Shown: piece by piece, positions 6,482-25,241 of the stretch | How positions within the stretch are numbered: position 1 is the stretch's first letter | Layout of the letters: each line of letters opens with the position of its first letter | NCBI RefSeq assembly: GCF_003001995.1 | Contig: NZ_PVNB01000009.1 | Coordinates: forward strand, 1 to 64,000 | Reading direction: 5' to 3' | Source of the DNA: Orenia metallireducens | GTDB lineage: Bacteria > Bacillota > Halanaerobiia > Halobacteroidales > Halobacteroidaceae | DNA: 64,000 nucleotides | Notes under the pieces: generated by a model | The model's database searches: none | What the model was told of the DNA's origin: nothing | The model's input: only the letters and a program-made list of their open reading frames with translations | Program-made: the position numbers and the translations under genes

Positions 6482-6894
6482 ATGGTTGACTATAAGAAAA
6501 AAAGTCATGCGATATATGATATAAAGTATAATTTAGCATGGTAACAAAATATAGATACAAGGTTCTTAGTAAAAATATATCAATGAGATTAAGACAATTA
6601 ATAAGACAAAGTTGTGAAGGTAGAAATATTAAAGTAGTTCGAGAAAGCATAGGAAGAGACCATACATTAATATCATGTCTTCCAAGTAAAATAGTTTAAT
6701 ATTTAAAGGGAAGGTCATCAAGATTGATACAGGAAGAATTTCCATATTTAAAAAAGAAATATTAGGGACAGCATTTTTGAGCAAGAGAATATTTTTGTGT
6801 AACAGTAGGAAGTGTAACTGAAGAAACTATAAAGAATTATATTGAAAATCAAGGATTAGAGAATATAGATGATATATTCAAAATAGAAGAATGA
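6482..6894 (+). pseudogene. tnpA: IS200-type TnpA transposase remnant
   Basis: Reading through the lesions gives a recognisable IS200/IS605 Y1 transposase: MVDYKKKSHAIYDIKYNLAW, then TKYRYKVLSKNI, YLKGRSSRLIQEEF, KKKY-GQHF-AREYF and a C-terminal YIENQ with the usual catalytic Tyr. The damage is extensive: a frameshift near 6540, a deletion in the DHxHLLV region that removes the metal-binding HUH histidine pair, a stop in SKIV-YLKGR, and two Trp codons turned to stops (before GQHF and before ARE). It cannot make active enzyme. It sits between the transglutaminase and exporter genes and marks the island as mobile-element territory. The ends were not mapped; the palindromic stretch at 6940-6995 may be part of the right end. 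Confidence 0.85.
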
Positions 6895-23617: not shown

Positions 23618-23980
23618 ATGGGAAAGAAAATATTAATTACTGATGATGCGAACTTTATGAGAACGATGCTTGCTAAGATAGTTGAGGAGAATGGTTATGA
23701 AGTAGTAGGAACTGCAGAGAATGGAGAGGTGGCAATTCAAAAATATAAAGAATTAAAGCCTGATTTGGTAACTATGGATATCACTATGCCTGGCATGGAT
23801 GGTATTGAAGCTACTAAGGGTATTATGGCAGTAGATCCAAATGCTAAGATTGTAGTATGTAGTGCTATGGGGCAAAAACCTATGGTGTTAGAAGCTATTG
23901 AAGCTGGAGCAAAGGACTTTATAGTAAAGCCTATTAAGCCAGAAAAAGTTAAAGAGACTTTGGCTAAATTAATAGGTTAA
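23618..23980 (+). CDS. cheY: CheY-type single-domain response regulator
   Basis: A 120-residue receiver domain without an output domain. Phosphorylation residues are intact: D9-D10, D54 in TMDITMPGMDG, S82 in VVCSAMGQ and K104 in FIVKPIKP. The CSAMGQ segment is typical of Firmicute CheY, which switches flagellar rotation when phosphorylated by CheA. The ATG follows AGGAGGGATAAAG. No other chemotaxis gene lies in the window, so the role in motility is inferred from the family. Confidence 0.9.
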   Translation: MGKKILITDDANFMRTMLAKIVEENGYEVVGTAENGEVAIQKYKELKPDLVTMDITMPGMDGIEATKGIMAVDPNAKIVVCSAMGQKPMVLEAIEAGAKDFIVKPIKPEKVKETLAKLIG

Positions 23981-24059: not shown

Positions 24060-24353
24060 TTAATTGAGAACATGGGTTACTAAACCCTATTTGTGTAAAA
24101 TATTCAGGTTATCGTAATACCAATGTATTCCCAGAATAGCATACCTACAGGTCTATCAACCTTTCGTGCAAGACCAGATGCTATGAGGGATAATGGGTTT
24201 GTGGACAGCCCCTAGTGAATAAGGTAATCTACACTTGTAGAGGAAACTTAAACTACAAACTTCACTAAAAAGCTACTAGTAATATACTTTTTTTGAGTAT
24301 ATAAAGTATAGCGAAGCTCCATCTAAATTTTTAATTTAGGTGGTGAGGTTCAC
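24060..24353 (+). mobile_element. Orphan IS200/IS605-type end with omega-RNA-like structure
   Basis: The right part resembles an IS605-family right end: GCGAAGCTCC at 24311-24320, a hairpin CTAAATTTTTAATTTAG with flanking ATC/GGT pairs, then GTGAGGTTCAC ending at 24353. In this family the right end is also the 3' end of the TnpB guide RNA. The 200 bases before it are GC-richer than the region and structured (GGTTTGTGGACAGCCCC, CTACACTTGTAGAGG), as expected for an omega-RNA scaffold. A GGGTT-ACTA-AACCC hairpin near 24074 may mark a left end. No tnpA or tnpB is present. The element is therefore non-autonomous or decayed, with sequence after 24353 as the would-be guide. Confidence 0.6.
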
Positions 24354-24381
24354 GAGATATCTCTAGATATAATCTTATTAG

Positions 24382-24417
24382 AAAAACCAGTTAATCTTTA
24401 AAGGTTAACTGGTTTTT
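24382..24417 (+). terminator. Terminator downstream of cheY and the IS605-like end
   Basis: AAAAACCAGTTAATC pairs with GGTTAACTGGTTTTT around a short loop, with T-runs on the outside. It may be the original cheY terminator, pushed away by the inserted element. Confidence 0.8.
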
Positions 24418-24953: not shown

Positions 24954-25241
24954 ATGCCTAATAGTGATTTAAAAGCAATCAAGGTAGTTGTTAAGGGAAG
25001 GATTCAAGGGGTAGGTTATAGAGCTAACACTCATAAGAAAGCTACTCAGTTAGGTATTACTGGATACATACGCAGCGTTCAGGGTAGAGAAATAGAACTT
25101 GTTGCAGAAGGAAAGGAAGAGGCTTTAGAAGAATTGATAGAATTCTTAGAGGAAGGACCTTCTGGTGCGGAGATTGAAGCATGTGAAGTTGAATGGATAG
25201 AAGCAACCGATGAATTTATCAGGTTCTCTATTAAGTATTAA
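24954..25241 (+). CDS. Acylphosphatase-fold protein lacking the catalytic Asn
   Basis: A 95-residue protein that aligns along its whole length with acylphosphatases, which hydrolyse acyl phosphates. The phosphate loop GRIQGVGYR (residues 15-23) keeps catalytic R23. The catalytic Asn expected after GYIR is Ser at residue 41 (GYIRS). The rest of the fold (IELVAEGKEEALEELIEFLEEGP) is intact, and a normal ending FSIKY is present. Loss of Asn sharply lowers activity in studied enzymes, so this may be a weak enzyme or a binding protein. The ATG has a modest GGGGGAATT ahead of it. The next gene follows after 18 bases. Confidence 0.88.
   Translation: MPNSDLKAIKVVVKGRIQGVGYRANTHKKATQLGITGYIRSVQGREIELVAEGKEEALEELIEFLEEGPSGAEIEACEVEWIEATDEFIRFSIKY

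Follow-up and report, generated by a model that had tools for sequence, protein, structure and literature searches.

The window, a 64,000-nt stretch of Orenia metallireducens contig NZ_PVNB01000009.1, belongs to a draft assembly of 4.10 Mb in 95 contigs that is 99.96% complete. The stretch studied here has as neighbours RecU, a CheY-like response regulator (23618-23980) and an acylphosphatase (24954-25241), and no transposase or nuclease gene was found between these neighbours, including a tnpA or tnpB next to the right end. An earlier note, made from the sequence alone, had read positions 24060-24353 as an IS200/IS605 right end with an omegaRNA and without TnpB, and this reading is supported. 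The right end is where it had been placed, with GTTCAC ending at 24353 and GCGAAGCTCC together with a CTAAAT/ATTTAG hairpin at 24312-24345; the bases before it are structured, as had been claimed, the 316-nt stretch having a predicted fold of -75.3 kcal/mol when compared to a shuffled mean of -63.9 kcal/mol (z -2.06); and the absence of an adjacent tnpA or tnpB holds at the locus. Two points had to be corrected. Similarity to the family described below begins at about 24079 and not at 24060, and the statement that no tnpA or tnpB is present is too broad: a decayed IS200-like Y1 transposase with four internal stops, the single Pfam Y1_Tnp match in the genome, occupies 6523-6852 (+) of the window, and the genome encodes two TnpBs from other subfamilies at other loci. 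No other structured-RNA model for the region was obtained from Rfam, which gave no match to the window at gathering scores. The features of the locus are listed in Table 1.

Table 1. Features of the element remnant and its right flank, in window coordinates.
Feature	Position	Strand	Basis
3' remnant of the truncated 5' RNA module of the family (5' strand of first stem and promoter missing)	24079..24111	+	83% identity to C4 module and linker
Linker with variable hairpin, stem ATAGCAT 24136-24142 / ATGCTAT 24178-24184	24112..24185	+	Sequence; alignment of copies
Last nine codons and stop of lost tnpB (RDNGFVDSP*)	24186..24215	+	Comparison with TnpB C-termini ARDNGFVDNP
OmegaRNA scaffold, 36/37 consensus pairs kept	24186..24353	+	Covarying alignment A1, per-row pairing, model R2, tnpB-adjacent position in relatives
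IS200/IS605 right-end hairpin and terminal GTTCAC	24313..24353	+	Conserved across dozens of right ends from related genomes
Would-be guide (flanking host sequence)	24354..24373	+	Homologous flank of congener G001 restarts here
Intrinsic-terminator-like palindrome (host, outside the element)	24382..24417	+	Inverted repeat; conserved in element-free G001

Related genomes carry sequences of ~70% identity to 24186-24353 immediately after the TNB domain in TnpB genes of ~409-437 codons (about 423), whose proteins display the C-terminal motif given in Table 1. In the window, 24186-24215 reads AGG GAT AAT GGG TTT GTG GAC AGC CCC TAG, so that the end of the lost tnpB is still legible. Among the 37 pairs of an alignment of 19 scaffolds (A1), 21 have both sides changed; the window scaffold loses only one of the 37 and differs on both sides at seven from the commonest pair in the TnpB-linked rows. 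RNA model R2, which had the window copy in its training set, scores the window scaffold at 183.8 bits. The segment 24186-24353 is thus a TnpB-type omegaRNA scaffold ending in an IS200/IS605 right end, for which there are no data on transcription or TnpB binding.

Upstream of the scaffold, the linker hairpin varies in length and sequence among the aligned copies, and the linker resembles in part the 3' coding region of tnpB. A reading of 24079-24140 as a frameshifted tnpB 3' end was rejected: ~24120-24140 does align with tnpB, while the earlier portion is the end of a separate RNA module. Separately, the variable hairpin of the window contains at 24144-24168 a palindrome, CCTACnnGT...CTTTCGTG (CTTCGTG in others), of which none is expected by chance within the window; it recurs, in both orientations, in the loops of other omegaRNA elements (L146, L147, L155, L160, L164, L165, L190 and L193), and might conceivably be a tiny repeat that inserts into RNA loops.

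The sequence recurs at C4 and C5 of the same genome and, at up to 97% identity, in other genomes, which rules out chance. C4:172328-172568 (-) is a complete copy with a left end and a scaffold 90% identical to that of the window, and C5:75199-75307 (+) is a decayed copy (81% identity). The similarity of the window to the C4-type leader begins mid-leader (24079), the left-end hairpin, the promoter and the rest of the leader being missing, and RNA model R1 gives the truncated module 22.2 bits (E 0.18) versus 87 bits for the C4 copy. The corresponding intergenic region of the congener G001 is free of the element: homology to the window extends as far as ~24067, breaks off over ~80 unrelated bases and resumes at ~24354, and the downstream terminator is conserved. 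Given the mid-leader start of the similarity and the positions at which the G001 flanks match, the left end, the promoter and half of the 5' module were most likely lost in a deletion that also removed some flank. As the left end is absent, the window copy should not move, and it is most likely a left-truncated, immobile and probably inert copy.

No cognate TnpB for the window scaffold was found in the genome, within the completeness of this draft; the only two TnpBs, both at C4, have other 3' ends. Because of this absence, the window copy is regarded as an orphan scaffold and not as a working omegaRNA. Both TnpB loci have features of their own. Directly upstream of the 364-aa TnpB, in the place of tnpA and behind a left-end-like hairpin, stands a 43-aa ribbon-helix-helix (CopG-like) gene (L010 3304-3435 (+)); the 379-aa TnpB (L009 3000-4800) has intron-like structured sequence on either side, and its locus could be an IStron, a possibility judged only by eye.

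An alternative is that the window copy has been adopted by the host, being made from the cheY-like transcript and put to regulatory use by a TnpB- or TldR-like protein. In favour of this, it lies on the same strand as the response-regulator gene, its scaffold is intact and a terminator stands 28 nt past the scaffold. Any transcript of this copy would start from the cheY-like gene, and it is possible, but not shown, that such transcription reaches the scaffold. Against it, the genome has no cognate TnpB or TldR, neither a TldR or other TnpB-like protein near the locus nor a matching target was found, a search for a second target of the guide (24354 on) gave none above the control pattern, and the same locus is empty in G001. 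We therefore consider host adoption very unlikely. Of the three origins that the earlier note had left open, a decayed element holds for the window copy, which lost its left end; a non-autonomous element mobilised in trans evidently holds for the family; and a guide RNA kept after loss of its nuclease holds in part, the scaffold being structurally intact but in a genome without a cognate nuclease.

The complete relatives are ~350-490 bp long and comprise a left end, a promoter, a 53-84-nt RNA module, an omegaRNA and a right end, with 110-230 nt of scaffold retained. The C4 copy, G019c, G019d and G007a all possess a left-end hairpin as well as a promoter-like site and a 5' leader, and fit the criteria of non-autonomous IS200/IS605 elements (PATEs), the window copy being a remnant without left end. 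Promoter-like sites read TTGATA-17-TATAAT (type F), TTGAAC-17-TATAAT (B), TTGAAA-16-TATAAT (D2) and TTCAAA-17-TATAAT (A); in the remaining types the promoter match is not above shuffles, in a comparison that leaves out the L152 row. A shorter type A derivative, G019b (L046 2227-2460 (-), genome G019), has neither module nor promoter, its left-end hairpin adjoining the scaffold directly, and its scaffold is 97% identical to that of the window. L152 and L162, both of type F, occupy different sites and show 100% identity along 393 bp. Insertions of type F lie behind TTA and those of type E behind a GTTAT-like sequence, with variable right flanks; one type E copy (L165) sits in an apparent chemotaxis receptor gene, named by eye.

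A TnpB profile search found no TnpB in the 68 module loci (a few of them overlapping), while all three positive controls were recovered. Among the listed genome hits, the nearest TnpB and module are 3.8 kb apart. The exception is L194 in G007:C2, where the module is matched weakly (35 bits) at ~570 bp past a decayed TnpB, in what looks like a distinct element that has an omegaRNA copy of its own. For the stand-alone copies of several genomes, that of the window included, no cognate TnpB was seen.

When the complete C4 element was used as query, ~60 nt inside it matched alone in other genomes, near a promoter-like site and in elements whose remaining parts are quite different. This module has two stems: AGTGAATAT..GGAGTT, then a variable 7-bp stem with loop CTAAnCCT (longer in some types), then GTAAAATATTCAAGG. 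In an alignment of 14 sequences, pairing holds in 98.2% of pair cells, and cells changed on both sides number 30, as against 8.2 in shuffles. The doubly changed cells number 79 (20.9 in shuffles) across 33 sequences and 78 (22.4 in shuffles) across 30 hits from Clostridiaceae, of which almost none had entered the building of the model; in this last set the first stem covaries too. The last two alignments (A3 and A4) were fitted to the structure of the model, which favours pairing. Frequent G-U variants point to a sense RNA, and Rfam searches with intact relatives at E up to 1 gave no relevant match, no Rfam family fitting the module. A pseudoknot between the loop CCU and a 3' AGG was considered and has no clear support, with one compensated pair and two breaks. 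A motif GCGA(T/A)AACCAAGC was also observed; in L147, L169 and L245 it sits within the module, where it occupies an enlarged apical loop, and in L240, L241, L244 and L259 it sits in a separate hairpin downstream of the module.

Within the class to which the window genome belongs, model R1 detected 46 modules, spread over 14 of the 59 genomes, and model R3 detected 36 modules in 11 of 206 genomes of Clostridiaceae, the family of Clostridium polyendosporum. Intact relatives occur across halophilic anaerobes and in some clostridia; G011 is rich in intact elements, with 12 copies. Hits of a pattern scan across ~85,000 species were confined to Natroniella, Halanaerobium, Halonatronum, a Halanaerobiaceae MAG and Clostridium polyendosporum; both the scan and the models miss divergent forms. 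No module was found in viral contigs, and neither plasmids searched with two intact elements nor phages searched with one gave a match. By similarity, the sequences that follow the module form at least seven classes, besides singletons, and these omegaRNA classes each match TnpB loci or stand alone. Class A, that of the window and also of the Clostridiaceae loci L231 and L251, matches the 423-codon TnpBs; class B matches TnpBs of roughly 362-375 codons, class C the 364-codon TnpB of the window genome, class D L207 and L204, class E L194-L196 and L198, class F the 433-codon TnpBs of G011 (at 89-95%), and the clostridial class G the TnpB loci L222 and L229. In L250 and L254 a tblastn match to the last 41 TnpB residues stands directly behind the module.

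One rival explanation is that these elements are plain deletion derivatives (PATEs or MITEs), in which the scaffold persists since TnpA needs the right end and the copies are recent, the RNA having no role. It is favoured by the existence of PATEs in the same IS605 group (PMC7290912), by G019b and by the lack of a cognate TnpB in the window genome. However, within elements that lack TnpB the module shows RNA covariation, and unrelated omegaRNA classes have it in common, several types have promoter-like sites ahead of it, and TnpA should need the end hairpins only, yet the long scaffold is kept. We regard this explanation as unlikely.

Our main reading is instead that the stretch derives from a non-autonomous IS200/IS605-type element that produces nothing but a guide RNA, and that this copy has lost its left part and no longer moves; we consider this likely (probability about 0.78), in the absence of expression, binding or transposition data. 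The structure, the composition, the absence of TnpA and TnpB, the recent copies and the shared module are shown; the steps that follow are inferred. In an intact element, transcription would start from its own promoter and the host sequence past the right end would become the guide. TnpA encoded elsewhere would move the elements, as suggested by recent copies without tnpA. A TnpB from elsewhere, where a cognate exists (e.g. for type F in G011 and type B in G035 and G058), would probably load the RNA and, by analogy with TnpB elements, cut the re-formed empty site, which may help copies persist. The module, in place of the tnpB body, would probably ensure that the 5' end of the RNA is stable or properly processed; a dedicated 5' structure is plausible because a stand-alone RNA lacks the tnpB mRNA whose processing yields the 5' ends of TnpB-encoded omegaRNAs (PMC10278001).

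Another possible, though less likely, role for the module is antitermination, i.e. that it allows polymerase to read through the right-end hairpin into the flanking guide. The module stands close behind the promoter in several types and is independent of omegaRNA class, and right ends are hairpins that polymerase must pass; against this, there is no direct evidence, and TnpB-bearing elements pass the same right ends without a module.

Altogether, the guide-only element remains the likely reading, supported by the tnpB-adjacent homology, the covarying scaffold, complete and identical copies, the element-free congener, a module that covaries in each of two independent sets and precedes at least seven omegaRNA classes, and the absence of TnpB from the module loci. 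Against it stand promoter matches that exceed shuffles only in some types, the missing cognate TnpBs, the structure-fitted A3 and A4 and the L194 hit, which do not overturn this judgement. A bolder reading, towards which we lean only slightly, is that of a transposon class with a guide RNA as sole product, in Halanaerobiales-type bacteria and Clostridiaceae, where a shared 5' module passed between omegaRNA lineages would make the 3' end of any TnpB element of IS200/IS605 type a guide-RNA gene in its own right, with TnpA for movement and TnpB for retention acting in trans. If true, TnpB nucleases would be exploited by guide-only elements, each insertion bringing its own target, which could explain the persistence of nuclease-free IS605 derivatives. 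The module would then be a signal marking free-standing omegaRNA genes, hence a handle for finding more, and a possible aid to guide-RNA expression separate from the tnpB mRNA.

The omegaRNA of TnpB is processed from the 3' end of the tnpB mRNA (PMC10278001, PMC8612924). As in these systems, the scaffold described here overlaps the tnpB 3' end and stops at the right end, and the flank is the guide; in contrast, intact relatives have a promoter and an RNA module where tnpB would be, with no tnpB upstream. TldR guide RNAs (PMC13418256) are likewise guides of TnpB descent used outside the normal element, but they accompany a TnpB-like protein and targets, neither of which was found for the window copy. 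Geobacillus PATEs and stand-alone IscB omegaRNAs (Meers 2023, Altae-Tran 2021) are reported to be guide RNAs or element ends without an adjoining nuclease gene, and no 5' RNA module is known to be shared among them. In the open-access literature searched, we came across no account of omegaRNA elements that lack TnpB, are promoter-driven and carry a common 5' RNA module. A PATE-like IS605 element of Halanaerobium hydrogeniformans (~271 nt, one copy) has left and right ends, lacks tnpA and keeps the last 58 nt of tnpB (PMC7290912); it belongs to the same right-end group and bacterial order as the window family. Its description predates the knowledge that right ends encode guide RNA and mentions no promoter or 5' module, and model R1 found no module in G029, which we take to be H. 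hydrogeniformans, an identity that is inferred. PATEs are known, one of them in the same IS605 group, whereas the shared promoter and 5' RNA module of this family are apparently undescribed, and the window copy is a broken member of it.
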